A model generated the notes under the pieces. That model did no database searches. It was not told the origin of the DNA and worked only from the letters and a program-made list of their open reading frames with translations. From a virus, in the IMG/VR virus record IMGVR_UViG_3300032214_000356, positions 1 to 37,017 of that record: a stretch of DNA of 37,017 nucleotides; one strand, written 5' to 3'. Position 1 is the first letter of the stretch. Each line of letters opens with the position of its first letter. This document shows positions 20,338 to 36,879 of this stretch, piece after piece. The position numbers and the translations under genes are program-made.

Positions 20338-20649
20338 ATGCAACAAAACTACCGCCAGATTGAGCCGGCCCCCGTGCTGGACAAAACCGCCAACGCCATC
20401 TCGGTTCCCTACGTGAACGTGCAACTGTTCCAGTCTTGCACGGCCCAGTACGAGGTCCGACAGGTCACCGAAATCCCTCCCCTGCCGGACGGTCAAGTCC
20501 TCCCCGCATTCTGGGGTCCGGTCTTGATGAATGGCAGCATCACCCTGAGCGGTGAGGACTACACCTCTTGGGGTGAGGACGACAACTACCTCTACGAGAA
20601 GATTGCCGAGAAGCTGGGCCTGACGCTGATCCCGCTCCCGACCGCTTGA
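20338..20649 (+). CDS. Small unknown protein of fibre cluster
   Basis: 103 residues with the ATG one base after the preceding stop, clearly co-translated with the fibre-assembly-like gene. It is Pro-rich, with a central IPPLPDGQVLPAFWGP and an acidic aromatic segment (YTSWGEDDNYLYEKI). It has one Cys and no membrane segment. No family is recognised. It may be a minor structural or chaperone component. Its stop codon lies inside the -35 element of the promoter for the next gene. Confidence 0.65.
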   Translation: MQQNYRQIEPAPVLDKTANAISVPYVNVQLFQSCTAQYEVRQVTEIPPLPDGQVLPAFWGPVLMNGSITLSGEDYTSWGEDDNYLYEKIAEKLGLTLIPLPTA

Positions 20650-20674
20650 CACATCGAGTCCGGTGTTGTACACC
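20646..20674 (+). promoter_or_regulatory. Sigma70-like promoter with palindromic operator
   Basis: TTGACA (20646-20651), a 17-base spacer and TACACC (20669-20674). The -10 overlaps a palindrome GGTGT-TGT-ACACC (20662-20674). A start about 7 bases downstream would fall 2-3 bases before the ATG at 20684, so the mRNA would be almost leaderless. The same arrangement, TTGACA-N10-GGTGT-N3-ACACCT, is found on the minus strand at 36337-36365. Confidence 0.7.
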
Positions 20675-20683
20675 TAAATCCGC

Positions 20684-20911
20684 ATGTCTGACACCACCGA
20701 TATCGTCTCGAAGATCAACACTGAGCGGGATCTTGTTCTGAGCAACATTCAGCAGCTTGAGCAGAACATCAACATCTTGACTCAGCAGCTGAATCAGTCC
20801 CAACAGAACTTGGTTGCCTCCAAGGGCGCTGTCATGGGTTTTGATCGGCTCCTGTCTTCGTTGAGCCCGAACACTCCCCCTCCGACTGAGGGCGCTGAGA
20901 TTCCCGTCTAA
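20684..20911 (+). CDS. Small coiled-coil protein in its own transcription unit
   Basis: 75 residues. Residues about 8-48 form a Gln/Asn/Leu heptad coiled coil (LSNIQQLEQNINILTQQLNQ), followed by a short helix and a Pro-rich acidic tail. No membrane segment or catalytic motif. It is framed by a TTGACA/TACACC promoter on the left and an intrinsic terminator 26 bases after its stop, so it can be expressed separately from the late genes around it. No Shine-Dalgarno fits between the promoter and ATG, suggesting leaderless translation. The function is unknown; possibilities are a regulator, an anti-host factor or a small structural protein. Confidence 0.75.
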   Translation: MSDTTDIVSKINTERDLVLSNIQQLEQNINILTQQLNQSQQNLVASKGAVMGFDRLLSSLSPNTPPPTEGAEIPV

Positions 20912-20936
20912 CCTAACCAAACCATAATCGACGCAG

Positions 20937-20964
20937 CCCACCCTCGAAAGGGGGTGGGTTTTTT
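20937..20964 (+). terminator. Intrinsic terminator
   Basis: CCCACCC (20937-20943) pairs with GGGTGGG (20952-20958) around an 8-base loop, followed by TTTTTT (20959-20964). It ends the 75-residue coiled-coil unit and any read-through from the fibre genes. Confidence 0.9.
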
Positions 20965-21019
20965 CGTTGTATACGACTACCACTTGCTGGCTACAGGTGC
21001 GCCGAGTACCAAAGTAACC

Positions 21020-21736
21020 ATGAGTTCGCCGATCACAGGCAGCAGTTTCACCGTAGCGACGCTTGGAGAGAGCTTTTGCAACCGGATCACCAACCTCCTG
21101 GCGCTGTCATCCAAGATGAAGCTGTGGTTCGACTGGGCTTTTGATAGTGCAGGCAACGCGACCTCCGACTTCAAGTCGATGTTCCTGCCTCCTCCCAATG
21201 TCATCATGCCGTTTTACATGTCGGACACGGAGGCCGCTGTTAAAACCGCTGTCGAGGCGCTCAACAAACCGACTGGAGACACTGGGCTTGCGTTCTGGAG
21301 ACTCTGCGACGGAACCAACGGGACTCCTGATCTGCGTGGCCGCGTCATTTCTGGTGCTGGTGCAGGCACTTCTCTAACTGAACGCAACAACGGAGATATT
21401 TTTGGCTCTGAGAAGGTCACTCTCGCGTCGAATCAGGTGCCTGTTCAGCCACATTTCCATGGTATTGGACTCCGCTCTGGAGGTGGGTCAATCGACGCTG
21501 GCAACAATGACTTCGACTTCATCATGCGTCAGTGGACATTGGCCGGAAACTACCACTACAACACGCTTCAGGGTGATGGAAGTCTGTCTGGCAACGGCAA
21601 CTTCTCGAACACCGGCAATGCGGCCACCACTGGGCTCATTGCTGACGGTGAATCCACCGCTCCTTCTCAAGGTGTTTCCGTTGTTCAGCCGTCAATGGCT
21701 ATCTGGTTCATCATGCGCACCACTCGAACTATATGA
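21020..21736 (+). CDS. Phage tail-collar domain protein
   Basis: 238 residues from the ATG at 21020. A GTG at 20954 is in frame but lies inside the terminator stem, so it is rejected. The C-terminal two thirds match the tail-collar pattern: FWRLCDGTNGTPDLRGR (about residues 94-110), RVISGAGAG, GSEKVTLASNQVP, QPHFHG, and the closing VVQPSMAIWFIMRT. This domain lies at fibre or short-fibre tips in many phages, with a Trp/Cys/Asp/Gly loop and a His-rich turn, sometimes metal-bound. The N-terminal about 60 residues are probably an attachment helix bundle. The stop overlaps the next ATG (ATGA). Likely a receptor-binding or tip protein. Confidence 0.85.
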   Translation: MSSPITGSSFTVATLGESFCNRITNLLALSSKMKLWFDWAFDSAGNATSDFKSMFLPPPNVIMPFYMSDTEAAVKTAVEALNKPTGDTGLAFWRLCDGTNGTPDLRGRVISGAGAGTSLTERNNGDIFGSEKVTLASNQVPVQPHFHGIGLRSGGGSIDAGNNDFDFIMRQWTLAGNYHYNTLQGDGSLSGNGNFSNTGNAATTGLIADGESTAPSQGVSVVQPSMAIWFIMRTTRTI

Positions 21737-22455
21737 AGCGACTTGGAGGCGTTAGAGAGACTGGCATTCAGCTGAATGCTGTATCGCTGGACCTGCGATC
21801 CCCTGCTGGAAAGACCAGTGAGGGGTACTTCCGCCTTGTCGTGAACGCCATCAGCGATCGTGAGGGTATGATGACGAGGCTTGGAGGGTGGAGGCCCCTG
21901 GCTCTATCAACTCTGCCGGCTGGAAACGAGGATCTGCACGATCAGCTTCTGACCAACACGGTTTCGCCAACGGTGATTGCTGGCACGGCAGTGATTTCTG
22001 TGATTGGAGCCAACGTGCTGGTTCAGAATCCAGGAACTGTCGTAGCCCCAACAGCTACCATCTCGAACAATGGTGGTACGGTTTACGCATACAGCCCGAT
22101 CATCTCCAACTTTCCGACGATTTCGGTCGTAGCGCCAAGCACTCATGCGTATGTCCCTTGGGTTGGATACATCTGGAGAGTCAGCACGCGAACAACAGCC
22201 GCTGTGACGACAGAGTCTGACGGTTACGTTGATCTCCAGTACACCTCTGTTCTAGCAGGAGGGACTCAGATTTTGCGCATGTACTCGAACACGAATGCTG
22301 CGGCCAACCAGAACGTGTTTGCATACGGATGCGCTCCGAATGACGCGATTGGATTTAGCGACACTGGTGTTTCAGACAAACTGATGGTCTGGAACTCGAC
22401 CATTCAAGACAGCAGTCTGCTTCCGCCCACCAACACCCAAATCATCTGTGAATGA
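21733..22455 (+). CDS. Tail nozzle-like protein, N-terminal part with beta insert
   Basis: 240 residues, overlapping the collar gene and the next gene by ATGA at both ends. Residues 16-73 (LDLRSPAGKTSEGYFRLVVN, then RLGGWRPL and NEDLHDQLL) resemble the beginning of phage tail-nozzle or hub proteins, in which this segment runs directly into an ITFL-LAGT-SRLY segment. Here that segment starts the following gene instead. Residues about 74-235 are Thr/Val/Ala-rich beta sequence of unrecognised type. The simplest reading is a nozzle gene whose N-terminal module gained a beta domain and became a separate polypeptide. It could also be an independent nozzle-associated protein. Confidence 0.5.
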   Translation: MKRLGGVRETGIQLNAVSLDLRSPAGKTSEGYFRLVVNAISDREGMMTRLGGWRPLALSTLPAGNEDLHDQLLTNTVSPTVIAGTAVISVIGANVLVQNPGTVVAPTATISNNGGTVYAYSPIISNFPTISVVAPSTHAYVPWVGYIWRVSTRTTAAVTTESDGYVDLQYTSVLAGGTQILRMYSNTNAAANQNVFAYGCAPNDAIGFSDTGVSDKLMVWNSTIQDSSLLPPTNTQIICE

Positions 22456-24248
22456 GCTCTCCTGAGTACATCACTTTTCTGGCCCACATGCGCGGCGAAA
22501 GCGGAGACACCCGGCTTTTAGCTGGAACGCGCTCTCGCCTCTACTCGAACACCGGTCTGGACGGCAACTGGCGTCTACTGATCGGTGGTTTGGGCGGTGA
22601 AATACCGGCCGCTGGTGTTCCAGAGACGCGGTGGAGGCATGCCCAGATGGGCGGCATCACGATTTTCACCAACGGCATGGACCAGCCGTACTGGTGGTCG
22701 TGGGAGAAGCCGTCTGACCCCACCACGGGCTACTCGGCCGAGCTCTTGGACGACTTTGTTGCGCTGGACATCACCACGGTGCGATCCGTTGGCGCATGGC
22801 GTGGGTTTGTCTTCGCTGGAAACGTCATCAGTGAGGGTGAGGTCTACCAGAACCGTATTTTCTGGTCGGACTTCAACGATCCACTGAGCTTTGTGCCCGG
22901 ACCAGAGTCTCTGGCTGGCTACATCGACCTCGGTGAGGACGAGCGTGTGCTTGCAATGGCTCCTCTTGGGGCGCAGTTCCGCGTCTACACCGACAAGGCC
23001 ATCTACAACGTGGATTTGGTGGGCGGAGATGAGGTCTTCAACTTCAGGGAGGTTTACCGTGGCCCTCAGGTGCTGCGGTTCGAGAACAGCCTTGTGAATC
23101 TGGGTGAGCTTCACGTCTATGGCGGTGAAGACACTATCTACGTCATCGGGGAGTTCGATCGGAGCCCAAGAATCCTCGATTGGCTGTACCGTGCGTGCGG
23201 CGCGATCTACAACGGTGTCAGTGCTGACTACCTAAGTGGCGTCACCATCTCGTCGTTCCCTGCTTTCGGCCCAGTCAATCGAGGCGCGTGCCATTTGCTG
23301 GTTGGTGGCTACGATGAGGCCGAGCGGATGGTCTGGTTCTCGTGGGCTCCTGATGCTGAGACGGTTCCGTCCAAGTCTCTGGTGCTCCAGATGGATATCG
23401 GCAAGGCGTGCTTGGTTGAATCCGGTTTCACATCGTTCGTTTCCCACCTTCCTAGCTACCAAGCCAACGTGCGCCGCTGGTTGGCTGATATTGGCGCGTG
23501 TCCTCCAGAGCCTCTTCCTGGTGAGGGTAACCCGCTCCCGATCACGTTCGTTCTGGACAACAACCTGACCTGCATTCGCAACACGACCGAGGACTACCTG
23601 CTTCCCCCAAGTCCCACCAACTCGCTGTGCGCCAAGATAGACGCGAACCCCAGCCTTGAGCCCGACTGCACCCCGTGTGGCAACGGGTACAAGTTCGTCA
23701 TGGCCTCCTCTCAGGACAAATGCCTGAAGGAGTACACGCCGGATGTCTACGCCCGCACCTACTGCACCACAGATCAAAACCAGCGGTCAGGAATGCCGTG
23801 GACGACGACCAATCACCCAACCACGGTGGTTAGCTACGCTGACTTCGGGTACACAACCCTGCTCCAGACAGACTCTCAGGACATGGGCACTCCGAACAAC
23901 AAGACGATCTCGCGGATCGCTGTTGAGTACGACGCCCCAGACGTGCCTGACATCAATGCTGCATACCTGCACGTTGACATCGGGTATGGATCTCAGCCGC
24001 ACCGGTTGATCTGGCAGACATCAAACCCTCGAAAGGTTGACCGCTTGTCGTCGGAGACCGAGGGCCAGATGGCCACTAACAATCTCAGGCCGAATCGCCT
24101 TGCGACGTATCAGTTCTTCAGGACTGGGTCGCAGATTGGGTTCCGCCTGATGATCGCCAACGCTTCAAGGAATCCGGTGGTCGGCGGTTCATGCAACCTC
24201 AACGAGATGAGTGTCTCGATGAGGTCTTCGCACGGAGACTATTTCTAG
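22452..24248 (+). CDS. Tail nozzle / hub protein, beta-propeller-like
   Basis: 598 residues, starting in ATGA overlap with the preceding gene. Residues 7-44 (ITFLAHM, LLAGTRSRLYSN, GNWRLL) and about 65-215 (GITIFTNGMDQPYWW, VGAWRGFVFAGNV, NRIFWSDFNDP, FRVYTDKAIYNVDL, YRGPQVLRF) are repeated beta strands of the type that form the propeller-like ring of podovirus nozzles. The nozzle is the distal tube of the short tail through which DNA leaves. A Cys-rich stretch at about residues 355-440, including CTPCGNG, suggests a disulphide- or metal-stabilised insert. The C-terminal region (about 480-598) is a beta sandwich. No signal peptide. Function is assigned by pattern and by position before the internal virion proteins. 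Confidence 0.68.
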   Translation: MSSPEYITFLAHMRGESGDTRLLAGTRSRLYSNTGLDGNWRLLIGGLGGEIPAAGVPETRWRHAQMGGITIFTNGMDQPYWWSWEKPSDPTTGYSAELLDDFVALDITTVRSVGAWRGFVFAGNVISEGEVYQNRIFWSDFNDPLSFVPGPESLAGYIDLGEDERVLAMAPLGAQFRVYTDKAIYNVDLVGGDEVFNFREVYRGPQVLRFENSLVNLGELHVYGGEDTIYVIGEFDRSPRILDWLYRACGAIYNGVSADYLSGVTISSFPAFGPVNRGACHLLVGGYDEAERMVWFSWAPDAETVPSKSLVLQMDIGKACLVESGFTSFVSHLPSYQANVRRWLADIGACPPEPLPGEGNPLPITFVLDNNLTCIRNTTEDYLLPPSPTNSLCAKIDANPSLEPDCTPCGNGYKFVMASSQDKCLKEYTPDVYARTYCTTDQNQRSGMPWTTTNHPTTVVSYADFGYTTLLQTDSQDMGTPNNKTISRIAVEYDAPDVPDINAAYLHVDIGYGSQPHRLIWQTSNPRKVDRLSSETEGQMATNNLRPNRLATYQFFRTGSQIGFRLMIANASRNPVVGGSCNLNEMSVSMRSSHGDYF

Positions 24249-24255
24249 CAACAAC

Positions 24256-24269
24256 ACCGCTTCGGCGGT
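24256..24269 (+). other. UUCG tetraloop hairpin
   Basis: ACCGC-TTCG-GCGGT in the 48-base gap between the nozzle and internal virion genes. C(UUCG)G loops are exceptionally stable. No T-run follows, so it is more likely an mRNA stability or processing element than a terminator. Confidence 0.55.
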
Positions 24270-24296
24270 TCACTAACTCAAAGAACAGGACACGCT

Positions 24297-25220
24297 ATGG
24301 GCATTTCAAATCTCGGTGGAATCATCGGGGCATTCGCTGGCTCCAAGATGGAGCGGATGAACAAGAATCAGGGTCTCCAAGACCAAATCGATTCTTCGAC
24401 TAGCGGCATGGACAAGTATCGTCAGGAGGCGGACACCGCTCTTGGCAATTACACCGCCGCGAACCGGACTGCTATTGGCGAGGTCGGCCGACTGAACCAG
24501 CAGACCGAGGGCGAGACCAACCAGATGCTCGGTGGTCTTCGCAATGCCAGCTTCATGGGTGACCGTGAACGGGCTCGTGAGGGCGACCTCAGCGCGCTCC
24601 AGGGTTTTCTTGGTCAGCTTGGTGGCGGCATGTCCAAGGCCGACAAGATGGCGGCTTCCCGGTTGGGTTACGCCGGCAAGGCTTCTGGCACCTACATGGA
24701 CAAGCAGCGTTCCGGCTACGTCGGTGCGTTCGGTGCGCCCATTGCCCAGCAGATCTTCGGCGGACTCAATCAAGCTGCTTCCGGTGCGGGCGCAGAGCGT
24801 GGCGCGAACGTCGGCCAGCAGATGGGGTTGATGCAGTACCGCAACCAGCTGCCGATGAACCTGGCCCAGATGGAGCTCAACCCGCTGCAAGCTCGTCAGC
24901 AGGCTCGTCAGGCTGAGATTGGGCAGCTGAGTGGTCTGTCTGACGTGAACAACTCGAACTTCGCTGGCTTCCAAGAGAAGCAGAACAAGTGGGCCAAGCT
25001 GGGAAGCGCCCTTGATTCCAGCGTGAACAGCGCCATCGACACCGGCATGAGCCTCTACAGCGGCGGAATGCTCGGCAGTGGCGGAATGCTCGGTGGTCTC
25101 ATGGGAGGTCTTGGTGTGGGTGGAGGCGGTCGCCAGCAGCAGGCTCCTACTCCGATGCCAGCCTACGGCTACGCCAACCCGATGATGTACGGCATGCCGA
25201 TGTACGGCCGCCCCTACTGA
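24297..25220 (+). CDS. Putative internal virion protein
   Basis: 307 residues. The N-terminus is Gly/hydrophobic (MGISNLGGIIGAFAGSK), as in T7 gp14-type ejection proteins that insert in the host envelope. The middle (about 30-235) is helical and rich in Gln, Ala, Arg and Gly. Residues about 254-280 form a Gly/Met/Leu stretch (GGMLGSGGMLGGLMGGLG), followed by a Pro/Tyr/Met tail. Amphipathic, Gly-rich, charge-poor composition, together with the position after the nozzle and before two further large proteins, fits an ejected protein that helps build a channel. No motif proves this. The start follows the UUCG hairpin and lacks a clear Shine-Dalgarno. Confidence 0.52.
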   Translation: MGISNLGGIIGAFAGSKMERMNKNQGLQDQIDSSTSGMDKYRQEADTALGNYTAANRTAIGEVGRLNQQTEGETNQMLGGLRNASFMGDRERAREGDLSALQGFLGQLGGGMSKADKMAASRLGYAGKASGTYMDKQRSGYVGAFGAPIAQQIFGGLNQAASGAGAERGANVGQQMGLMQYRNQLPMNLAQMELNPLQARQQARQAEIGQLSGLSDVNNSNFAGFQEKQNKWAKLGSALDSSVNSAIDTGMSLYSGGMLGSGGMLGGLMGGLGVGGGGRQQQAPTPMPAYGYANPMMYGMPMYGRPY

Positions 25221-25254
25221 TCAACCCTGAACAACAACCAGACCAAACACTTTT

Positions 25255-26793
25255 ATGGCAGACGCTTACGGATCAACGCTGGACTCGCTGATGGCCAACA
25301 AGATCGCCCAGCAGGGCGCTCAACAGGCTGAAGCGAACTCGTATCGCAACTTCCTCAATCAGGTGTCCAACACCAACCTGCGCCGCCGCGAGGGTGAAGC
25401 CCTTGATCGTCGGGGAATGGAGGAGTTGGGGATCAGCCGAATGAACGTGTCCGGCCTCAATGACTACCGACGTGGTCAGGTGGATATCGGCATGGAAGAT
25501 GCCCGCACTCGCCGGTATGAGGGTGAGACTGGCCGAGAAGGTATGCGCGGTCTGAATACCTATCGAGGTACTCTCGGTGAGATTGGCAAGACTGATGCCG
25601 CGACCCGTCTGCTGGACACTCAGAACATGGGCAGGTATCGGGATAATTTAACTAACGCCCAGCTTAAGCAAATCGAGTCTCAAGAACGACTTGGAGTGCG
25701 TGGGTTCGACACATCCGAAAGGAATGTTGGTACTCAGGCTGAAGCCCTGAAGTACGGCTATGAGGCTGGTGTCCGAAGCACTGATATTCAGGCTGGCGCA
25801 AGCAAGTTTGACTCCGCAAACCGCCTCAAGGCGGCGTCGCTTGAGTACGACAGGCTGCGTGCTGGCGAGCAACTCGCGTACAATGCAGGCGGTATGGAAG
25901 GGCTTCAGCAGTTTCGCGCCGCCAACAACCCTGGCAGTGAGAACATGCGCCTCATGCGGCAGTCCTATCAGCAGGAGCAGGACGCCCAGCGTCGCAGTGC
26001 TTATGGGTCCACGATGGACCAGCTGAATAAAGACTTCGAGTCTGAAGCGAGTGGCTTGTCGTCATTCATGCCGAACAGCTATCGGACTAAACAGATTATT
26101 GCTGAGCAGGATCGTCTCAAAGCTCTGGGAATGTCCGAAGAACAGGCATACGACGAAGCTCTCGGAACCGTGTCTCGACAAATCGTTGACGCACGTTTCG
26201 GATCTCGCCCCGGAGTTAACGAGATCCTGCGCGAAGACCGCTACGACGTACCTCAAGGTAGTCAACCTCAGGGTCGAGGCATGTCTGCCCCGACTGCTGC
26301 TCCGACCAATGCCGCTCCGACTCGAGTTCTGAATCGCGGTGGTCGTCAGCAGCCGGTGTCGCAGAACCAACCTTCTCAGTACCAAGACGAGCCGGTTGAT
26401 CAGTCTCAGCAGTTTGGTCCTCCGTCCCCAGCTGATGCGTTCGGTTCGCGTATGCAGCAGTTGAGGGGGATGAGGTCTCGGGAAATCTCAAACGCAGGGG
26501 CTGTAGGCGCGTTGACGACACCGTTCTTCGCTGGTGCCGCCGATGCGATGGGTGTCCAACCTGAGCAGGTTGGTGCCAGCAATCGTTACAAGCGCCCTCG
26601 TTCCGTGGTCGCCGACAACTGGAATAATTTCGGCCCTCAGTTCGAGTCGCTTCCTGAGGATGTGCGGAACAGTGTGTACATCAACTCGCTGAACGCGGCG
26701 AGCGACGTTGATGGTCGCTATTCGCCGGCTAACAGTGGCTATCGCGGTCGCGAACTTCCGTCTCTGGACTGGATGACCCGAACGCAACAGTAA
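25255..26793 (+). CDS. Putative internal virion protein
   Basis: 512 residues, helical and rich in Arg, Gln, Gly and Asn. About residues 40-240 contain loosely repeated helical segments built around R-x-x-GE-x-x-R and TYRGTLGEIG/TRLLDTQNMGRYRDNL motifs. Residues about 335-400 are a Pro/Gln/Ala low-complexity linker, and the last about 110 residues look folded (TTPFFAGAADAMGV and onward). No catalytic motif, Cys or membrane helix. It lies between a likely channel protein and the giant peptidase-containing protein, the usual location of ejection proteins in podovirus-like genomes. Family not recognised. No Shine-Dalgarno before the ATG. Confidence 0.52.
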   Translation: MADAYGSTLDSLMANKIAQQGAQQAEANSYRNFLNQVSNTNLRRREGEALDRRGMEELGISRMNVSGLNDYRRGQVDIGMEDARTRRYEGETGREGMRGLNTYRGTLGEIGKTDAATRLLDTQNMGRYRDNLTNAQLKQIESQERLGVRGFDTSERNVGTQAEALKYGYEAGVRSTDIQAGASKFDSANRLKAASLEYDRLRAGEQLAYNAGGMEGLQQFRAANNPGSENMRLMRQSYQQEQDAQRRSAYGSTMDQLNKDFESEASGLSSFMPNSYRTKQIIAEQDRLKALGMSEEQAYDEALGTVSRQIVDARFGSRPGVNEILREDRYDVPQGSQPQGRGMSAPTAAPTNAAPTRVLNRGGRQQPVSQNQPSQYQDEPVDQSQQFGPPSPADAFGSRMQQLRGMRSREISNAGAVGALTTPFFAGAADAMGVQPEQVGASNRYKRPRSVVADNWNNFGPQFESLPEDVRNSVYINSLNAASDVDGRYSPANSGYRGRELPSLDWMTRTQQ

Positions 26794-26859
26794 GTTGGTG
26801 CCTGACATCTGATCCATCAAGGATCTATCACTTCGTTCAGCAAAAAGACCGACACGCCC

Positions 26860-29800
26860 ATGCCCAAGATCATTGCAGTTGAAGGCCACGGAAATCTTCA
26901 GTTTGGCGACGACTGGTCTGATGAACAGATCGACCAGTACGTTGACCAGAACTACTTTAGATCGCCGTCAGTTGCACAGGATCAGGTCGCTCCAGCCGCA
27001 GAGAAACAGGGTATGTGGGACTCGTTCACCAGTGGCTTCGGTCGCGGCTTCGAGGCGGGAGGTATTCCATTCTATAGCGGCGGCAAGGAGGCGGTGAAGT
27101 CAGTCGGTGTGCTGAGTGCTGCACTCGCTGCCCGTGAAGGCACTGCATCAGATGAGCAGATGCAGCGTCTACGTGAGTACAAGGCAGAAGAAGACCGCGC
27201 TGCTGCTGAGGCTGCCGGTCGTGGAACAGCTGAACGGATTGCCTACGGTGTTGGACGTGTTCTCGGCGAGGCTCCCGGCTTCGCTGGCGAACTGGCTCTT
27301 ACCGGAGGCGTTGCAACTGCTGGCGAAAAGGCTGCTGTCAAAGCTGCTGCTGCTGGCGTCAAGGCGCTGGGCAAGGAGACTGCCTACACAGCAACACGCA
27401 AGGCTGCAGACTGGGCTGCTGACAGTGTCAGTGGTCGCATCGTTCGCGGTGTGGCGGGTGCTGCTGCACAGACAGTTCCGTCCGGTGCGGCTCGCATTGT
27501 GTCTGGAACTGCTGAACGGATGACTCCGGGGTTTGATTTGGAGGAGGCACCGGAAGGCACCTACTTCACGGAAACCAAGCAGGCTGATCCGTTCGTAACC
27601 GCAGCCTACAAGGCTCTTGGAGACCAGTTTGTAGAGGTTCTGAGCGAGCGGTCTGGTGGGTTTCTCACCGACATGCTTGGTTCCGGTGCCCGCAAGGTTG
27701 GTCTCGGTGGCACCATCGACTGGGCCTCTGGTCTCAAAAAGGCAGTGGCTGGTCGAGTGGCGCAGAAGTACCCCGGAATGTTCGAGGGGAACGACTTCAT
27801 TGACGCTGTCAGCAAGACCACCAAGTGGGATGGCGTGTTCGGCGAAATGCTGGAGGAGCGTGCCGGTGAACTAGGTCGCGCTGCTATCGGTGTTCAAGAC
27901 TATCAAGCTCCGTCGATGGAGCAGCTGGCCACAGAGGCTCTTGGGTTTGGATTGATCGACGCGGGGTTCAATGGTGCTCGTTTGGCTGCGGCCCTGAGCA
28001 AGAAGGGTCTGTCCAAAGACCAACGCGCACGAACACAGCAAGCTCTCGATGCCGTCACTGCTGCGGAGTCAATCATTCCAGCAGCAACCCCAGTCCAAGA
28101 GGCTGACCCTGCTTCCTCGCTCTACGATTACGATGCTGCCCCTCGTGGACGTGAGAGCGGTCGCACCCGTCCTGCGTGGATGGATCAGGCTGATCAAGCC
28201 ATGGCTGAGGCGAATGCCAAGCTCGAGCGCGAGCAGAACCTCGCTGCTCAACGTGCTTCCACTGGTGTTGCCGGTTCTCTAGCAAGACTTGAGCAAGATC
28301 AGGAAAACCGTTACGGCCCTGGAGCTCGTGGAGAGGTTCCTCAGAAGATGGAGGATGCAGGTATCGACGTGATGCTGCGCCTCTTGGATGAGCGCCAGAA
28401 AGATGAGGCTGCTGCGAACCGCGCTGCCGCTGGTGTTGGCTCAAGGCTCTCACAGCTTGAGGAGAATCAGGCTAACCAGTTCGGCCCAGGTGCTCGTGGC
28501 GAGGTTCCGCAGGTCATTCGGACTGACATCGGCTCCACACTGAGGAAACAGCTGGAAGATGCTCGGAGGCGCGACGAAGATCTAAAGGCCCAGATCGAAG
28601 CTGAGATTGCTGCACGCGCTGAGGCCAAGCGTCTTGCCGCTGAGAAGGCTGCCCGTGAGCAAGCTGCGGCCCAAGCCCGCGCTGCTGCTGAGAAGGCTGC
28701 CCAAGAACAGGCTGCCGCTGAGGCCCGTGCTGCTGCTGAGGCTGCTGCCGCCGCCGCTACCAAGACTTCCCTGCCGACTGAATCCTCGCTACCGGTGGGA
28801 ACCGGGGCTGCTCCTGTGGGTGGTGTCCCAGTTGCGGCCCCGGTCATTTCTTCAAATGGTACACAAATCCAAGCGCCTCCAGCGGCGGCTGTGGCCCCGG
28901 TCCAGCCCGCCAAAACCGAAACGCCTAGTGGGGCAGCAGGTCCGAAAACAACCGCGCCCCAAGGACCAGTAGCCGCGCCCAAGTACACGGACGGCACCGA
29001 GGTCAAGGTTGGCGACACTATTCGCTGGCGCACGGCTGCCGGTAAGAACGAGGTGCTCGGCACCATCGACTCCATCAAGGACGGGGTGCCGCAGGTTCGC
29101 GTCACGCAGCTGTCCAAGAAGGCTCCGAACACCCAGAAGATCGGCAACATTGAACTCAGTGGTGTGTATCCGGTGGTTAACTCCAACCTGCTCGAGAAGC
29201 GCGAGTCGGTGAAGGAGACCGAGAAGAAGAAGGTCGGCCGCCCGTCGAAGATCACACAGACCGACGATGAGAATGTGGCAGCGATCTTGGAGGAGGGTGT
29301 GTCCAATCCTGAGTACGCCAGGTTCTCAGAGCTCATGGAGGGCGCACTCAAGGAGAACGAGGGCGACGAGGAGGCGTTGGAAGCTCTTCGTGAGAAGGTT
29401 GGTACGCGGGCGTCCGTGGCCATGGAAGCCGCGTTCAACCAGCAGACTGCGTTCGACTTCATCGATGGCCAGCCAAGCGTAGTCAACGTCGAGATAGACG
29501 ATGTATTAACAAACTACGATCGCGGCCTGAAAAAGTGGGTACTCAAGAACATCGACAGCAAATCGCCTGTCGGGTTCTCACCCAAGAAGAACCTGGTCAT
29601 CGCGGTTCGCAACTCCCGCAAGAAGTCGCTCATCGAGAAGGCGACCACCTCAATGAGTTCCTCCGTCAACGAAGACGGCGAGGAGAGTTCCCCGATCGAG
29701 CAGTTTGCCCAGCCTGTCCAGAAGGAGAGTGCTGCGTCGCTGGCGTCCATCTTCAGGAATGTTGAGGCGCTTGCTGATGCCGTTGTCTCTGCAATCCAGA

Positions 29801-32800
29801 AGGCCGAGGCTGCTGTGCGTGGGCGTCAGCTGACTCCTGATGAGTTCACCAAGGCTGTCGTCAGTGGATTCAAATCACTGATTCCAAACGCCCCTGCAAA
29901 CGTAGCCGCAACTCTTGAGAGTATCGGTCTCACTGCATCTGGAAACCTTCAAGACATCTACGACGAGAAGGGGATCGATGGCGTTGATAATGCCATCGCT
30001 GAAGGTGAAGCACTCCTAGCCAACGCCGCTTCCCAGGACACCGGCAACCAGTCTCTCCAGCAGGGTGAGACCACGTTGGCTGAAGCCATCGACACAGTGC
30101 TCGCTGGCAACAGTGCCAGTAGTTGGATGCGCGGTATCGCTGAGAAGCTGCTCAAGGCCAAGCTCCGCGCCCGTGTGGTTGTGCTGTCCGATGCCGAGTT
30201 CGACCGCATCGCGCCTCGCCCCGGTCAGTCCGCGTTCTACGACTCCAACCCTCAGTCCGACACGATCTACATCCGCCAGTCCGCTGCGTCGCACGACTAC
30301 TTGGTCATGCACGAGGCGGTCCACGCGGCCACGGTGTACGCGCTGCGCACCAACGTGAAGTTCCGCAACGAGGTTCGCCGGTTGCGCGATACTGCCGTCA
30401 AGGCTCTTGGATCGAACAGCTTCTACGGTCTGCAGGAGCACGGCTCCAACTTCAACAACCTCGCCGAGTTCGTCGGTGAGTCGATGTCCAGTCAGGAGTT
30501 CCGCGACGCGCTTAACGGTGTCACTTCCAAAGATGGTCAGTCACTCTGGGCCAAGTTCCTAAACCTGCTCGGCCGCCTGTTCGGGTTCAAGGGTGAGCAG
30601 AAGACCCTGCTCGACCAGATCGTCAACCTGAGCACCGAGCAGTTCGCGCCCAACGTCGCTCTCAGTGAAGGGGATCAGGGAGTCGGCGAGCTAATGGCTG
30701 CTCCTCAGGTAGAAAACAAGCAGCAGCTGAGCGACCTAACCTCGGTGCCCGGACTCAACGCGGCGAACATCGCTGCGATCGAGAACTTGGCGGCGACGCA
30801 GGCCCAGATGATCCCCGATACGCTGGTCGAGCGAATCGTAAATTCCGGCAAGACGGTTCAGCGAAGCCTGCAGTGGCTGATCGATCAGCGGCTTGTCTCA
30901 ACATCGCCGATGCAGCTTGCATCGATGCCAACATCAACCGATGAGGAGGTTGAGGCTAAGTATCAAGCGTCCCATGCCGTTGACCAGTTGGCTCGCGACG
31001 TTGAGAACGAGCGCACCAAGGTTCTCGATCGGCTTGAGACGCTGCGCCAGAAGTACAGCACATCGATCATCGGCCTGAGGAAAAAACTCGCCTCCGCTAA
31101 TGTCAAAGTGGCTGCAACAACTGGTGTAGTAGACAACCTTGTTGAAGACTACAAAGAATACGTGCGCGAGTCGGTTCTGACTGGCGGAAAACTGACCGTG
31201 TCTCAGAGGGCTGCTGTCGAACAAGCCGCCGAGATCGTTCGCCGCACTCACAAGCAGTCGGACCAGATGAGAAAAGCGATTTCTGCAATCGCTGAAGGTG
31301 TCACCGATGCTGAGCTCAATGCTGCTCAGACCAACGACGACATCATCAACATCATCACCACCCGCAATCTGCTGGATCAGAAGGTTCTGCCAGAGACGAT
31401 CACCGCGTTGTTCACTGCTGGCTCTTCTGGAAGCACCCCGTTGCAATCCATGCGCCGGCTGATCCCCGCGTTGAAGATGATCAAGAGGATCAACTCCAAC
31501 ATCGCCGTGGTGAAGGCTTCGATCGACGGGTTCGAGGCGGCTGTTGCTGGCATGACCGGCAACAAGAAGCGCAAGGTGAACCCTCGCGCTTTCGCACGGC
31601 TCTATCGCCGAGTGCTGGCCAAGCAGTCTGAGGCAATCGAGGAGGCGCGCCTGCTGGACAACACCATCAACCGGATGGAGCGCAGCATCCTCCGCGCTGT
31701 TGATGAGCTCAGCATCTACGACGCGCTCACCGCATCGCCTGAGTTCAGCACTCAGCACGAAGAGGCGATCCGCAACCTGAACATCCTGTCCAGCAATGCC
31801 GGCGACTACGGCGGCGCTGAGGGATCGAAGAGCGATCGCAAGCTCACCTACAAGATTGGCTCCCAGCTGTATACGTTGGAGTACAGTGCTGATCCGGCTG
31901 TCAACGCGAACAACAACGCGGTCGTGATGAGTGCGCTCACCGCGATTGAGAACGAGCTCAAGAAGCCATTGAGTGCGATCGACCGCTTCAAGCTGAAGTG
32001 GATGCGCACCAAGCTGACGTTGTTCTCCAACCCGATGGGAGACGCCGCGCTGGCAATCAACAGCTTCGACATTATCAACCGTCTGCGTGTTGCGATTCCG
32101 ATCCTCACGCCGCTGATCGATCGTGCATACGTCCTGTCTTTGATGCCTGGAACTGTCGGCAAGGAACTCCGCCTCCTGCTCAAGGTCTCCATGTCTGTTG
32201 CCTCTGGAATCGAGGCGGCACGGATGAACCCACGGTTTGGCGAGTACGCAATCAACCTCGCTGTCGATAACGCTATCAAGAGCCATCCGGGTCTTGACGC
32301 TCGCACATGGGACAAGGAAGTCCTCAACGAGTTCCTTGGCAGCAATCAGGAGCGCATCGGTCGCAACCTCAAGGTTGGTGACACCACCGCTTTCGGACAT
32401 GTCATAACCAAGGAAGACGTGAAGGCGGCTGAGCTTCAGGCTCGGTTCGCTGATGCGATCTACAAGGCTGCTCGCGGTTCTGAGAACGGCGGCATCGCCA
32501 TGTACTATCCGACGCTGGTGCAGGAGTCGTTCATTGTGAACGGCGAGAAGCGCAGTCGCTTCCGATACGCTTACGCTGGTGGTGCATTCACCACTCCGAT
32601 GACTCTGGATCGCAGTGAGCTTCCCGGAAGAGTGCGAGACATGGCTCAGCAGTGGCAGAATGAGGGTAAGAGCCTTTCCACTGCTTACGCCAATCGGCTG
32701 GCCCTGTTGCAGCAACGCAAGTGGTTCGTCAATTTTGCGCTCAAGCACGTCATGGAGATGAGCCCTCTGTACAAGAGGAACTCTCCGTACTTGAAGATCT

Positions 32801-35550
32801 ACCAAGCCCTCGCGGATCGGTACGCATCGACCGGACAGCTGCCCGGAACGCTTGATGACCTGATTGATGACATCGACGCAATGACCCCGGCTGTTGGAGA
32901 CGAGGCTTTGAGCAAGGATGACATCTCGCGTCAGCTGGTCAGCGAGATCGACGAGTTCGTCAATTCCTACCTGACTCAGATCAAGGGCGCTGATCGAGAT
33001 GAAGAGGCCGCACTCCTGAAGACGGACGCCATGTCGGCGGTCGCGTTCAACTCTGTCATCAGCGGTTCAAACAACTTCACCAAGCCTCGTGGTGATATGG
33101 TTGCGCCGTCCAACTTCTACAACTTCACCATCTCCAGCGACAGCGCCAAGGGTGTGATTGCCCACTCGGCAATGATGCCGATTCGGATGCGCCAGTTGGA
33201 TCTGATGCGTGATGCGAATGACGCGTTTAAGGCTGAGCTCGCCAAGATTAACGAGCAGATTGAAAGCCGGAAGGGTTCTACTGGTTACATCAAGCGCGAG
33301 TGGACTGAGCCGAAGAGCAACGTCCTCTCTGGCAAGGCATACCTCAATCAAGGTCAGTTGATCGATCTGGTGAAGATGATCACCAACGTGACCGACGTTC
33401 TTCAGCAGACGCTTGATAAGCCGGCCGTCGGCCGCCTTCAAACGACTGTCATTGAGGACATGCTTCAGGTTCGACGGGTGATGCTCGTTGCACAGCTGAC
33501 ATCGGCGATCATGAACTTCACTCAGGCTGTGACTGCTGGTCAGTTCACTCCGAGCATCTATCTGCAGGGCTTCAAGCCTAAGAGCCTTGTCAAACAGGGT
33601 CTGACCCAGATCGTCCGTGGCGCTTGGGATACAGCTGCTGCACTGTCGTCTGAGAACAAGGCTGTGTCCGGCTGGCTCAATGCCAACAAGTCCAAGACTC
33701 GATTCCTGATGCGCAAGTTCGCTGAGCGCGTCGAGGAGTTCCAGCGCATGCAGGCGCGATCCAATTTTGAAGGATTCGCTGCTCCCCGCATGAGCGTGTT
33801 TGAGCGAGCCAAGATCATCCGCCAACTCGGTGGGTATGGATCTCCAGTTGAGGGGTTTGCTGACTCCGTCGGTTCAACATCGCGTGTACTTGAGGGGGTC
33901 TTCTCGAAGTGGTTCCTACCCTACGTTGCGCTTGGCATTCAGAACATCCCGGCATCCGTTGATCGTGTGGCCAACATGATCAACCTCATGTCCATTCAGG
34001 ACACGCTGAACTTGGTGATGCGGTCTGGCATCTCGATCATGGACAAGCGGTCGAAGTCCGGCGCTACCGGATGGGATAACTGGTCCGACCCGAAGAACCT
34101 GATCACCGAGGCTGAAGCTGAGGCGGCCGGCTGGCAGCGCGAGACTCTGGTCAACATGCGTCAGTCGTTCTCTGGTCTTGGTGGTCTTGAGCGGGTGCTG
34201 CACGACTACTGGCTGCGCGTTCAGGCGGCCAAGGCTGCTGGCACTGACATCAATGATGTGCCTCCGATTGCTGACGAGGGATTCAACCGAGACGTTTCGC
34301 GTGAGCTTCTCGGCATGACCAACGCATCGATGGAGGGCATGCGAGCGGAGGCCATCCAAGGGCGCACCATCTTGGGTCGCATCTACAACTTCATCTTCAC
34401 GTTCTCAAGCTGGGTGAACCGGTACTTCAGCACGCTGGGCAACCTGTCTGCTGTCGATCCGAAGCGTGGCTACGTCAACTTCGCTGCCTACTCTGCGATC
34501 TCGATGGTCGCACTCCTGACTGTGCTCGCCCTGTCGGGAGCGTGGAACAACGAGATCCGTGGGTTCTTCTACGAACTGGTGAAGGGTCGCCCCTACCCGG
34601 TTACCCGCTTGGGTGATGTGCTCCGCGATGCAAACCCCGGAAGCATTGCCAAGCTGGCTGCTGCATCGATCAGCCTGATGGTCCCCTACGCTGGCGAGGC
34701 CATCTCCAACATGGTTGGTGGTCAGACCTACCGGAACTCTCCGACCGATATCGCCAGCTTCTCGCAGTCAGTGCAGCTGGCCAAGACGTTCTCGTCTGCC
34801 ATCGAGAGCGGAATGAAGACTGGCGACTGGACCGGAACATTCGTCAACACGCTGCGCCAGACGGTGCCTGGAACTGACACGGTGCTCAACCGACTGCCGG
34901 GTGTGCGATCTGCTGATGCCTCGGCTGATGCAGGACGTGCCGCCCGAGTCGCTGCAGGCCCGCTGGAGCTCTCGGACAAGGGTGGACAGGGTGGAACGCC
35001 CACTAAGTTCAGCAACCTCGTCAGAAGGGCAGAGGCCGCCGCCGCTGGTGGTAACCTTGAGGAAGCCCGGAGCCTGCTGCAGCAAGCCGCCGAGGAGAAG
35101 AAGAAGACGGGCGGTACCGATCCCTACGGTGCTGTGAAGTCGGCCATTGCCGGTCGAGCCGTGGATCGGAAGACGTTTGGGCGGAACCTGACTGACGACG
35201 AACGTGAGGGGTTGCTCTCTCGTATGAGCGATACCCAGCGGGTTGCCTACCAGAAGGCTGACGACGCCAACAAGGCGCTTGCCAGTTTGGTGCCTGATTC
35301 AGGTAGCCGTGGGGATCTTGAGCGGGTTGGCGGAAAGCCGAAGACTGCGATCGATCGGATGAACTCGAAGTTCAGGAAGCTCCGCCGCTCCGCAACACCC
35401 AAGGCGCTGCGGGCGGTGAAGACCAAGCTGTCGAAGCTCAAGCCGAAGAAGCTGAAGATCTCGAAGCCGAAGACCGTGCGCGGCTCAAGGCTGCTGCGAC
35501 CAAGAGCTCGGGCGGAGGGGGCTTTTGCGCTGCGCCCCGCCTCGATGTGA
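26860..35550 (+). CDS. Giant polyvalent ejection-type protein with zinc-peptidase motif
   Basis: 2896 residues. The N-terminus (VEGHGNLQFGDDWSDEQI) is a short module found at the start of many large phage virion proteins. Residues about 45-240 are Ala/Gly amphipathic helices. About 454-551 hold a duplicated GPGARGEVPQ unit. About 570-640 form an Ala/Glu/Lys coiled coil, followed by a Pro/Ala linker and a small beta barrel-like domain (about 708-775). Residues about 1074-1225 form a zincin-type domain with H1151-E-A-V-H1155 and downstream NLAEFVGE (E1203 or E1207 as likely third ligand). The rest is mostly helical. About 2240-2640 resembles C-terminal domains of phage polyvalent proteins, with one membrane-like segment at about 2541-2565. 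The tail is strongly basic. Probably packaged and ejected with the DNA to act on the host cell. RNA polymerase motifs were not seen. Confidence 0.75.
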   Translation: MPKIIAVEGHGNLQFGDDWSDEQIDQYVDQNYFRSPSVAQDQVAPAAEKQGMWDSFTSGFGRGFEAGGIPFYSGGKEAVKSVGVLSAALAAREGTASDEQMQRLREYKAEEDRAAAEAAGRGTAERIAYGVGRVLGEAPGFAGELALTGGVATAGEKAAVKAAAAGVKALGKETAYTATRKAADWAADSVSGRIVRGVAGAAAQTVPSGAARIVSGTAERMTPGFDLEEAPEGTYFTETKQADPFVTAAYKALGDQFVEVLSERSGGFLTDMLGSGARKVGLGGTIDWASGLKKAVAGRVAQKYPGMFEGNDFIDAVSKTTKWDGVFGEMLEERAGELGRAAIGVQDYQAPSMEQLATEALGFGLIDAGFNGARLAAALSKKGLSKDQRARTQQALDAVTAAESIIPAATPVQEADPASSLYDYDAAPRGRESGRTRPAWMDQADQAMAEANAKLEREQNLAAQRASTGVAGSLARLEQDQENRYGPGARGEVPQKMEDAGIDVMLRLLDERQKDEAAANRAAAGVGSRLSQLEENQANQFGPGARGEVPQVIRTDIGSTLRKQLEDARRRDEDLKAQIEAEIAARAEAKRLAAEKAAREQAAAQARAAAEKAAQEQAAAEARAAAEAAAAAATKTSLPTESSLPVGTGAAPVGGVPVAAPVISSNGTQIQAPPAAAVAPVQPAKTETPSGAAGPKTTAPQGPVAAPKYTDGTEVKVGDTIRWRTAAGKNEVLGTIDSIKDGVPQVRVTQLSKKAPNTQKIGNIELSGVYPVVNSNLLEKRESVKETEKKKVGRPSKITQTDDENVAAILEEGVSNPEYARFSELMEGALKENEGDEEALEALREKVGTRASVAMEAAFNQQTAFDFIDGQPSVVNVEIDDVLTNYDRGLKKWVLKNIDSKSPVGFSPKKNLVIAVRNSRKKSLIEKATTSMSSSVNEDGEESSPIEQFAQPVQKESAASLASIFRNVEALADAVVSAIQKAEAAVRGRQLTPDEFTKAVVSGFKSLIPNAPANVAATLESIGLTASGNLQDIYDEKGIDGVDNAIAEGEALLANAASQDTGNQSLQQGETTLAEAIDTVLAGNSASSWMRGIAEKLLKAKLRARVVVLSDAEFDRIAPRPGQSAFYDSNPQSDTIYIRQSAASHDYLVMHEAVHAATVYALRTNVKFRNEVRRLRDTAVKALGSNSFYGLQEHGSNFNNLAEFVGESMSSQEFRDALNGVTSKDGQSLWAKFLNLLGRLFGFKGEQKTLLDQIVNLSTEQFAPNVALSEGDQGVGELMAAPQVENKQQLSDLTSVPGLNAANIAAIENLAATQAQMIPDTLVERIVNSGKTVQRSLQWLIDQRLVSTSPMQLASMPTSTDEEVEAKYQASHAVDQLARDVENERTKVLDRLETLRQKYSTSIIGLRKKLASANVKVAATTGVVDNLVEDYKEYVRESVLTGGKLTVSQRAAVEQAAEIVRRTHKQSDQMRKAISAIAEGVTDAELNAAQTNDDIINIITTRNLLDQKVLPETITALFTAGSSGSTPLQSMRRLIPALKMIKRINSNIAVVKASIDGFEAAVAGMTGNKKRKVNPRAFARLYRRVLAKQSEAIEEARLLDNTINRMERSILRAVDELSIYDALTASPEFSTQHEEAIRNLNILSSNAGDYGGAEGSKSDRKLTYKIGSQLYTLEYSADPAVNANNNAVVMSALTAIENELKKPLSAIDRFKLKWMRTKLTLFSNPMGDAALAINSFDIINRLRVAIPILTPLIDRAYVLSLMPGTVGKELRLLLKVSMSVASGIEAARMNPRFGEYAINLAVDNAIKSHPGLDARTWDKEVLNEFLGSNQERIGRNLKVGDTTAFGHVITKEDVKAAELQARFADAIYKAARGSENGGIAMYYPTLVQESFIVNGEKRSRFRYAYAGGAFTTPMTLDRSELPGRVRDMAQQWQNEGKSLSTAYANRLALLQQRKWFVNFALKHVMEMSPLYKRNSPYLKIYQALADRYASTGQLPGTLDDLIDDIDAMTPAVGDEALSKDDISRQLVSEIDEFVNSYLTQIKGADRDEEAALLKTDAMSAVAFNSVISGSNNFTKPRGDMVAPSNFYNFTISSDSAKGVIAHSAMMPIRMRQLDLMRDANDAFKAELAKINEQIESRKGSTGYIKREWTEPKSNVLSGKAYLNQGQLIDLVKMITNVTDVLQQTLDKPAVGRLQTTVIEDMLQVRRVMLVAQLTSAIMNFTQAVTAGQFTPSIYLQGFKPKSLVKQGLTQIVRGAWDTAAALSSENKAVSGWLNANKSKTRFLMRKFAERVEEFQRMQARSNFEGFAAPRMSVFERAKIIRQLGGYGSPVEGFADSVGSTSRVLEGVFSKWFLPYVALGIQNIPASVDRVANMINLMSIQDTLNLVMRSGISIMDKRSKSGATGWDNWSDPKNLITEAEAEAAGWQRETLVNMRQSFSGLGGLERVLHDYWLRVQAAKAAGTDINDVPPIADEGFNRDVSRELLGMTNASMEGMRAEAIQGRTILGRIYNFIFTFSSWVNRYFSTLGNLSAVDPKRGYVNFAAYSAISMVALLTVLALSGAWNNEIRGFFYELVKGRPYPVTRLGDVLRDANPGSIAKLAAASISLMVPYAGEAISNMVGGQTYRNSPTDIASFSQSVQLAKTFSSAIESGMKTGDWTGTFVNTLRQTVPGTDTVLNRLPGVRSADASADAGRAARVAAGPLELSDKGGQGGTPTKFSNLVRRAEAAAAGGNLEEARSLLQQAAEEKKKTGGTDPYGAVKSAIAGRAVDRKTFGRNLTDDEREGLLSRMSDTQRVAYQKADDANKALASLVPDSGSRGDLERVGGKPKTAIDRMNSKFRKLRRSATPKALRAVKTKLSKLKPKKLKISKPKTVRGSRLLRPRARAEGAFALRPASM
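28219..28512 (+). repeat. Two-copy 56-residue repeat in giant protein
   Basis: Residues 470-495 and 526-551 share 16 of 26 positions, including GPGARGEVPQ in both copies. Copies start 56 residues apart and are encoded at 28267-28344 and 28435-28512, with several silent differences. Confidence 0.8.
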
Positions 35551-35851
35551 ATGACAGTGGGCTGACAGTCTTGCGCGGGTCCAATGATCTGCGCAGGAAG
35601 TATCGATGACGCCAGAGGTTGCGGAGTGTGACGCCACAGCCTCGCATGAAAGAGTCCGCGTCTCCGATGGAGACCTTGTCCCAAGACTTGAGCAGGGACA
35701 GGTCGCGCACCTTCTCGTAGGACAGACCACTCCGCTTGGCGATGTCGTGATGGGTGAGGCGCTTGGCACCACGACCCTTACCCTCCCGTGCTAGGAGCCG
35801 GATGATCTGGGGAGGGAATGCGCTGAGCATTTGGGAGATCGTGTCTTTCAT
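35438..35851 (-). CDS. Small helix-turn-helix DNA-binding protein
   Basis: 137 residues from the ATG at 35851 (reading leftward); a GTG two codons upstream is an alternative. AGG lies 5 bases before the ATG. Residues about 30-47 (KRLTHHDIAKRSGLSYEKV) fit a helix-turn-helix: A-K-R-S-G-L-S is the typical turn with a recognition helix following. Residues about 50-85 (DKVSIGDADSFMRGCGV) complete a small domain resembling phage Cro or early regulators. The last about 40 residues are basic, Ser/Ala/Arg-rich and overlap the 3' end of the giant plus-strand gene by 113 bp in antisense. It probably regulates transcription from nearby promoters. The palindrome at the two promoters is a plausible target, but no direct evidence links them. 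Confidence 0.72.
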   Translation of the reverse strand: MKDTISQMLSAFPPQIIRLLAREGKGRGAKRLTHHDIAKRSGLSYEKVRDLSLLKSWDKVSIGDADSFMRGCGVTLRNLWRHRYFLRRSLDPRKTVSPLSFTSRRGAAQKPPPPELLVAAALSRARSSASRSSASSA

Positions 35852-36027
35852 CTGCACCTAACTGTAAATGGACGACCCATCGGATTGAACGGCTGGATTT
35901 CAACAAGGTTCCAGTGAGTAGGCTTGCATCCACCCCACTGTCTCTCAGCCAAAGTACCCGAACCTCTGGACTCTACGGCCCAGCGTGTCTTATGCCCGTC
36001 GGCTTTCTCTACACCATGGATCGAAAT
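35848..36027 (-). CDS. Possible small ORF after tRNA, start codon unclear
   Basis: The frame between the tRNA and the helix-turn-helix gene is open for 59 residues and reads like protein (HGVEKADGHKTRWAVESRG, KPTHWNLVEIQPFNP). Its TGA overlaps the regulator ATG as ATGA, as in true coupled pairs here. No ATG lies in the open part except near the end. Options are ATT right after the tRNA CCA, a GTG inside the tRNA T-stem, or an internal TTG that would give 34 residues. It may also be a remnant. Function unknown. Confidence 0.35.
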   Translation of the reverse strand: MSIHGVEKADGHKTRWAVESRGSGTLAERQWGGCKPTHWNLVEIQPFNPMGRPFTVRCR

Positions 36028-36102
36028 TGGTAGCGGGGGGTGGACTCGAACCACCGACCGTCTGCTTATGAGGCAGCCTAGCTACCGCTGCTACACCCCG
36101 CC
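36028..36102 (-). tRNA. tRNA with CAU anticodon (Met or Ile2)
   Basis: A 75-base cloverleaf, read on the minus strand: acceptor GGCGGGG/CCCCGCT (first pair G-U), D stem TAGC/GCTA, anticodon stem closing on loop CTCATAA with anticodon CAT, T arm GGTGG-TTCGAGT-CCACC, discriminator A and encoded CCA. The anticodon stem lacks the three G-C pairs of initiators, so it is an elongator Met tRNA or an Ile2 tRNA whose C34 is modified to lysidine by the host. The outermost anticodon pair is G-A, slightly imperfect. An encoded CCA lets it function without host repair. Confidence 0.92.
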
Positions 36103-36290
36103 ACGAAAGCAACTGGGGCGCTCCGTTTTATGCGGTTACGGAGCAGGGATACCATGTTACCAGCGAACCACCGCCGCCGCATTCCCCGCTTGCCCCAGTA
36201 GAAAATGTGCCCGTTGTTTTCACAGTGTAAGGAGGCTAGAACAACTCGCTCCCCCTCGGGCGCACTGACGGTATCGGTCTTTCCCGACTG
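36078..36290 (-). other. Start-less open frame upstream of tRNA
   Basis: A frame of 70 codons between TGA at 36291-36293 and TAG inside the tRNA D-arm. The translation is protein-like (VSAPEGERVVLASLHCENNG, FYWGKRGMRRRWFAGN), but the only ATG codons are at 36182 and further in. It could be a gene remnant, a small gene starting at 36182, or chance. It occupies most of the 270-base gap between SSB and the tRNA. Confidence 0.3.
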
Positions 36291-36336
36291 TCACTGCTTG
36301 TGATCGCAGACTTGATCAACAATTCACTGCGCACAA

Positions 36337-36365
36337 GGTGTAGTACACCAAGTGCATCTTGTCAA
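36337..36365 (-). promoter_or_regulatory. Sigma70-like promoter with palindromic operator (minus strand)
   Basis: Read leftward: TTGACA (36365-36360), a 17-base spacer and TACACC (36342-36337), overlapping the palindrome GGTGT-ACT-ACACC. It is placed just after the SSB gene and points to the tRNA and helix-turn-helix gene. The layout is identical to the promoter at 20646-20674. Confidence 0.7.
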
Positions 36366-36372
36366 CGGGTGA

Positions 36373-36840
36373 TCAGAACGGAACATCATCGTCCGCACTG
36401 ACAGGCCCGTCGTTGGTTACGCCAGCCGCAGCTTGGCGCGGATTGACAGCAGCTTGCTCCTGCTTGAAGCGGCTGACGTTGGAGCCGCCATCAGACGGAG
36501 GGCCGGATGGGCGAGACAGCAGCTGGAGGTTTTCACCGAAGATGCCGAGCTTGCTCCGCTTCTCCCCGGTCTTCTTGTCCTCCCACTGGTCGAGCTTGAG
36601 TCGTCCGTCGATCAGGATGGGGTCACCCTTCTTGACGTACTTACTGACCACCTCGGAAACCTTTCCGATGAAGTCAACGTCCACGAACGTGACCTCCTCC
36701 TTCTTCTCACCGCTCTCGGTGGAGAACTTACGGGAGACTGCCAGTCCGATCTTTGCGATAGAGGTGCCCTTGGGTGTGACCTTAACTTCAGGATCACGGG
36801 TGACGTTGCCCATCAGGACGACCTTGTTGTACGATGCCAT
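36373..36840 (-). CDS. ssb: Single-stranded DNA-binding protein
   Basis: 155 residues. Residues 1-110 form the SSB OB-fold: SYNKVVLMGNVTRDPEVKV, IAKIGLAVSRKF, EEVTFVDVDFIGKVSEVV, KKGDPILIDGRLKLDQWEDKKTG. Residues about 111-149 are a flexible Gly/Ser/Gln/Pro linker, and the protein ends in DDDVPF, the acidic tip that recruits replication and repair partners in bacterial SSBs. It coats single-stranded DNA during phage replication. The size is close to bacterial SSBs, so it was probably acquired from, or shares ancestry with, a bacterial gene. The start is fixed by AAAGGAATAAC directly before the ATG. It follows the cut-off gene by 39 bases and is probably in the same operon. Confidence 0.96.
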   Translation of the reverse strand: MASYNKVVLMGNVTRDPEVKVTPKGTSIAKIGLAVSRKFSTESGEKKEEVTFVDVDFIGKVSEVVSKYVKKGDPILIDGRLKLDQWEDKKTGEKRSKLGIFGENLQLLSRPSGPPSDGGSNVSRFKQEQAAVNPRQAAAGVTNDGPVSADDDVPF

Positions 36841-36851: not shown

Positions 36852-36879
36852 TTGTTAGTGATAGCGCACGAAGCGCGTC

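Follow-up and report, generated by a model that had tools for sequence, protein, structure and literature searches.

Virus record IMGVR_UViG_3300032214_000356 (37,017 bases, analysed in full and referred to here as the window) carries two near-identical sequences on opposite strands, each with a -35-like hexamer at the same distance from a palindrome. The locus raises the question of whether these two sequences are operators under common control and, if so, which protein reads them.

The two sites and their neighbours

The plus site reads TTGACA-CATCGAGTCC-GGTGT-TGT-ACACC-T (20646-20674) and the minus site TTGACA-AGATGCACTT-GGTGT-ACT-ACACC-T (36365-36337). A preliminary description of this DNA had given both sequences, their positions and their gene neighbours (a 75-codon ORF behind one site, tRNA-CAT and an HTH ORF behind the other), and all were recovered exactly. 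The two sites are the only exact matches to TTGACA-N10-GGTGTNNNACACC in the window. With up to three mismatches, the composite motif occurs four times against 0.30 expected, a number reached by 0 of 100 shuffles. The palindrome alone, with up to two mismatches, is not rare in the window (28 against 19 expected), and the signal is therefore carried by the composite motif. A third exact palindrome, at 25362, is intragenic and without a -35, and was rejected as a member of the set. The features around the two sites, named S3 and S2, are as follows.

20646..20651, plus strand: -35 hexamer TTGACA of S3
20662..20674, plus strand: putative operator palindrome GGTGTTGTACACC of S3 (class A, see below), N10 after TTGACA, covering the -10 position TACACC at a spacer of 17
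20684..20911, plus strand: 75-codon coiled-coil-like gene, ATG 9 nt after the S3 palindrome
20935..20960, plus strand: intrinsic terminator at the end of the S3 unit, with conserved counterparts in G003, G006, G007 and G012
35438..35851, minus strand: HTH-like ORF downstream of S2, proposed earlier as the regulator
36028..36102, minus strand: tRNA, anticodon CAT, downstream of S2 and transcribed away from it
36337..36349, minus strand: putative operator palindrome GGTGTACTACACC of S2 (class A)
36360..36365, minus strand: -35 hexamer TTGACA of S2, directly behind the SSB gene
36373..36840, minus strand: single-strand DNA-binding protein (SSB) gene, upstream of S2
36880..37017, minus strand: tyrosine integrase gene, C-terminal end, with homologues in G003, G007, G012, G046 and G047

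The 75-codon gene has no Shine-Dalgarno sequence and is near-leaderless. Its orthologues stand behind the corresponding site in G003, G006, G007, G012, G019, L089 and L091, and the gene is part of a conserved promoter-gene-terminator unit within the late cluster. Site S3 together with the conserved terminator makes this unit self-contained; it is moron-like, yet tied to the proposed phage-wide regulon. The -35 TTGACA of S3 contains the TGA at which the preceding gene (20338-20649) stops, so that promoter and gene end are fused. Several site families in the relatives likewise have the upstream gene's stop codon inside TTGACA or TTGACT. The tail gene cluster lies between two giant ORFs, one of 2925 codons (11073-19850) and one of 2896 codons (26860-35550).

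Phage family and promoter geometry

The window is a fragment of a phage family with genomes of 60-70 kb; about 30 kb of its own genome would be missing. An exact motif scan of IMG/VR returned 50 motif-bearing stretches, many of them belonging to this one family. The structural genes of the long relatives G003 (62.2 kb), G007 (70.0 kb) and G012 (60.5 kb) are collinear with those of the window. Nucleotide and protein searches with the terminase, portal and capsid and with regions of the window gave no relative among cultured phages, and positions 35400-37017 matched other phages over the tRNA only. The RNA ligase, which matched many unrelated phages, was uninformative. A single 78% capsid match (L092, CAIRTT010000534.1, a metagenome bin labelled Armatimonadetes) was too weak and unreliable for a host assignment. 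The family is undescribed, known from metagenomes only and without a cultured relative. Its integrase matches PF00589 (E 8.7e-22), although no prophage or att site was seen.

The window and 16 fetched records were scored with TTGACA-N10-GGTGTATTACACC-T at a cut-off of at least 15 of 20 positions. This gave 89 matches, a number that includes some palindromes twice, once per strand; ten Markov-resampled controls gave 0-5. The fetched records included G021, later placed outside the family as a chance match with one motif only and none of the family's features. The more complete relatives have about 6-9 sites per genome, the fragmentary window 2, and GGTGT-N3-ACACC outnumbers every other short inverted repeat of its type in G003 (8 copies), G007 (8) and G012 (6). 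The motif was derived from just two copies in the window, which by itself would leave room for a chance resemblance; with the excess of matches over the controls, and with orthologous sites whose spacers have diverged, that explanation is left with a negligible probability.

Among the orthologous sites, S2 stands before the tRNA/HTH unit, S3 before the 75-codon gene and S7 before a ribbon-helix-helix (RHH)-like gene; others precede a GP88-like gene, a RecA-like ATPase gene, the leader of a replication-initiator-like gene, and small unknown genes. In some relatives a site stands before the RNA ligase gene, and further sites stand before thyX or the gene preceding it. The preliminary description had proposed a palindromic operator overlapping the promoter, and co-regulation, and had suggested scanning the complete phage genome for further copies. 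The promoter-linked copies and fixed geometry of the relatives lend support to both proposals, and random intragenic positions of the motif, named there as grounds for refutation, were not seen in the family. In relatives with 35-42% capsid identity the palindrome occurs only as scattered degenerate matches, none of them promoter-linked, and de novo palindrome counts gave no recognisable equivalent promoter motif. The RHH-like gene was not detected in them either, which is weak evidence for a protein so short at such divergence.

The palindrome has the best form GGTGTA-N-TACACC, with the 13-bp core GGTGT-N3-ACACC, and two spacings between it and the -35 dominate across the family. In class A, TTGAC(A/G/T)-N10 is followed by the palindrome over the -10 position, and the ATG usually lies 7-13 nt further on. 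In 28 non-redundant sites of this class, selected by TTGAC and at most two palindrome mismatches, the palindrome arms are near-invariant and the intervening N10 carries almost zero information. In class B, TTGACT-N3-palindrome-TAnnnT, the palindrome fills a 16-bp spacer, and in five non-redundant promoters the only -10 bases retained are those of the pattern TAnnnT. Chance motif matches in unrelated contigs of the collection served as an internal control. Family copies share descent, so the following counts are not independent trials: exact class A matches had an ATG 5-14 nt downstream in 43 of 51 family cases against 2 of 25 in unrelated contigs, and a T directly after the palindrome in 43 of 51 against 4 of 25, and class B matches were followed by TAnnnT in 12 of 12 against 1 of 6 elsewhere.

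Class B sites of the relatives agree with a sigma70-type promoter, TTGACT-N16-TAnnnT being present in all family copies. Neither class A site of the window has TAnnnT at 16-18 bp; TACACC stands at 17 bp without the last T. A consensus scanner found no promoter at 20646. Because of the poor -10 and this negative scan, class A promoters may be weak, activator-dependent or otherwise read. If transcription starts about 7 nt after the palindrome, class A messages would mostly have leaders of 0-6 nt. Shine-Dalgarno sequences precede only 24% of the genes of the family, compared with 12% of random stretches, and with so low a background their absence at site-linked starts by itself says little in favour of leaderless translation.

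The fixed distance between TTGAC and palindrome in class A, the ATG at leaderless distance and the poor conventional -10 could also be accounted for if the palindrome were not an operator but a promoter element, an unusual -10 recognised by a phage-modified polymerase or sigma factor. In class B, however, the palindrome lies within the spacer and a separate TAnnnT serves as -10; moreover, twofold symmetry is unexpected for a -10, and a few palindromes without a -35 adjoin an ATG. This reading is accordingly given a very low probability. As class B separates the palindrome from the -10, the palindrome is regarded, on the pattern of its positions, as a putative operator; the sigma70-type promoters that it overlies serve genes of replication and nucleotide metabolism as well as small accessory genes. 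The palindromes at G016:14013, G016:15080, G011:10086, G008:17233 and G045:17823 have no TTGAC box; several of them stand directly before an ATG, and they are possibly a third operator arrangement.

Outside the window, the relatives share a structured leader RNA that is conserved and some 150 nt long (G003:47491-47700; G007:14228-14020, minus strand; G012:47593-47804; also L057, L059 and L065). A promoter under putative operator control precedes it, the replication-initiator-like gene follows it, and its 3' end is a long terminator hairpin. Double changes were found in 13 of 34 pairs, and a GGAGAG loop is complementary to CUCUCC of the second hairpin, a possible attenuator. No Rfam family matched at the gathering score. 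An invariant stretch of the RNA is present in 17 viral stretches. A Type-P5 twister ribozyme scores above the Rfam gathering score at L065:19702-19757 (G012:59702-59757).

The RHH-like candidate and rival readers

Every family record spanning the region has, 6-13 nt behind S7, an RHH-like gene of 49-80 codons (49 residues in G012, 72 in G007), which stands directly behind the site in G001, G003, G007, G008, G011, G012, G014-G018 and G020. IMG/VR yielded 15 RHH loci, every one of them in a motif-bearing contig. The fold assignment comes from weak but concordant matches. RHH_1 was matched by 2 of 7 members (best Pfam E 0.0029, weak), and weak matches to VapB (E 0.0035) were accompanied by NikA-like and other RHH models. 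Of 11 Foldseek matches, 9 were RHH proteins by title, CopG among them, at non-significant E values of 4.8 or worse. The AF2 monomer (mean pLDDT 75) has two formed helices and a helix in place of the expected N-terminal strand. The protein is therefore called RHH-like with reserve.

Record G046, found after the fact via the class B motif alone, shares an MCP 70% identical and has 9 palindromes, with a class B site before the corresponding ATPase gene. Its RHH homologue (43%) has its ATG 6 nt behind a palindrome. The predicted DNA-facing strand LLALW(V/I)S is unchanged between G046 and the others, whereas much of the remaining sequence differs, and the predicted DNA-facing residues L11, A13 and W15 are invariant, G046 included. 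Gene position and co-occurrence make the RHH-like protein the best candidate for the regulator. The window does not extend to the RHH gene, which the phage from which the window derives presumably encodes as well. A second, divergent RHH-like gene was noted near palindromes in two lower-GC relatives (G016:15407-15279 and G018:9897-9769, minus strand).

The preliminary description had favoured the HTH protein of 35851-35438, which would bind the palindrome and autoregulate through S2. In the window, as in G003, G007, G012, G046 and G047, the ORF does stand behind the palindrome of S2. Its start in the window is nonetheless about 490 nt behind S2, after the tRNA; homologues occur in palindrome-free phages (G031, 41%; G028, 35%; G024; G033); and the predicted recognition helix changes from YEKVRD in the window to RSKIRQ in G046, while the operator is unchanged. 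The occurrence in palindrome-free phages and the changing recognition helix place it below the better positioned RHH-like protein, and it must be considered improbable as the reader; it is probably a regulated gene itself. Another phage protein, such as the double HTH protein or a second RHH protein of the early operon, or a host regulator that recognises GT-N-AC sites, such as a GntR/FadR-like protein, might read the palindrome instead. The double HTH gene (9397-9765 in G007) and RHH2 (7723-7923 in G007) have the same phylogenetic distribution as the RHH-like gene. FadR-like operators typically have palindromes of the GT-N-AC kind. In most relatives, however, no site immediately precedes the double HTH or the RHH2 gene, the double-HTH homologue of G046, behind the palindrome at 10339, being an exception. 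A reader of this kind is unlikely, if worth keeping in mind.

Proposed regulon and known systems

The model considered reasonably probable as a whole is a phage-wide operator regulon read by the RHH-like repressor. Promoters of the host-sigma70 type would be overlaid by the 13-bp palindrome, which falls on the -10 in class A and within the -35/-10 spacer in class B. The phage-encoded protein of 49-80 residues would bind the palindrome as one dimer or as two, blocking RNA polymerase. Autoregulation is probable, since the gene lies directly behind its own site. Replication initiation, the RecA-like ATPase, RNA ligase, ThyX and small unknown proteins would be held down in concert, and likewise the tRNA/HTH unit and the moron-like 75-codon unit in the late cluster. 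Early or replication genes make up most of the putative targets. We infer that repression by occlusion fits better than activation, because the side of the helix on which the operator lies, seen from the -35, differs between the two geometries. The presence of a tyrosine integrase suggests that the regulator may serve lysogenic silencing or early shut-off.

A bolder reading is offered tentatively, as somewhat short of probable: that a tiny RHH master regulator (49-80 residues, among the smallest known) runs an undescribed phage family via one palindrome, placed in the -10 or spacer of nearly leaderless, scattered promoters, and including control of the terminator-ended structured leader RNA before the replication initiator.

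CopG/Arc RHH repressors have about 45-55 residues, are autoregulated through a small pseudosymmetric operator over the promoter, and act on one or few operators. The present candidate resembles them in its small size, proposed autoregulation and small operator over the promoter, its family membership being drawn from weak scores. In the Bacillus phage SPbeta, the 15-bp SPBRE occurs at about ten places and is read by the repressor MrpR, which maintains lysogeny; SPBRE was first noticed in silico (PMC10516654). Both systems have a short motif at promoters scattered over the phage genome (PMC10516654). They differ in that MrpR is tyrosine-recombinase-like, belongs to a Bacillus prophage and reads another motif, while the candidate here is small and RHH-like. 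F55 of the archaeal virus SSV1, a 6.3 kDa RHH regulator, binds its own and several early promoters at sites overlapping promoter elements and holds SSV1 lysogeny (PMC5569661). The likeness lies in a small RHH or RHH-like protein acting, or predicted to act, on its own promoter and several others. F55, however, serves an archaeal virus and archaeal promoters, and its operators are tandem ATAGATAG repeats with no palindrome fixed behind TTGAC.

The 17-bp repeats TGTTCGG-N3-CCGAACA of cluster O mycobacteriophages, of unknown function (PMC4351075), are also dyad-symmetric with an N3 centre and present in many copies per phage genome. Unlike the present sites, they number more than 30 copies, are about one third intragenic and not tied to start codons, and occur without an integrase. 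The stoperators of cluster A mycobacteriophages are dispersed repressor sites, asymmetric, that act on elongation (PMC9283540, PMC6550527). Dispersal over the phage genome is shared by the putative operators described here, but these are palindromic and promoter-linked, whereas stoperators are asymmetric, oriented with transcription and not promoter-bound.

As in systems of the SPBRE/MrpR and F55 kind, the same short motif stands at several promoters per phage genome. Dispersed phage operators are thus already known as a kind; the present system is new, in an undescribed phage family, and no description of such a fixed promoter geometry was found in the literature searched. For a family known from metagenomes only, the analysis provides, from sequence alone, a directly testable regulatory map of operators, target genes and a candidate repressor. 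If the RHH-like protein does read the palindrome, the pair would be a compact repressor/operator system, and the protein a counterpart, in a tailed phage of bacteria, to F55 of SSV1.
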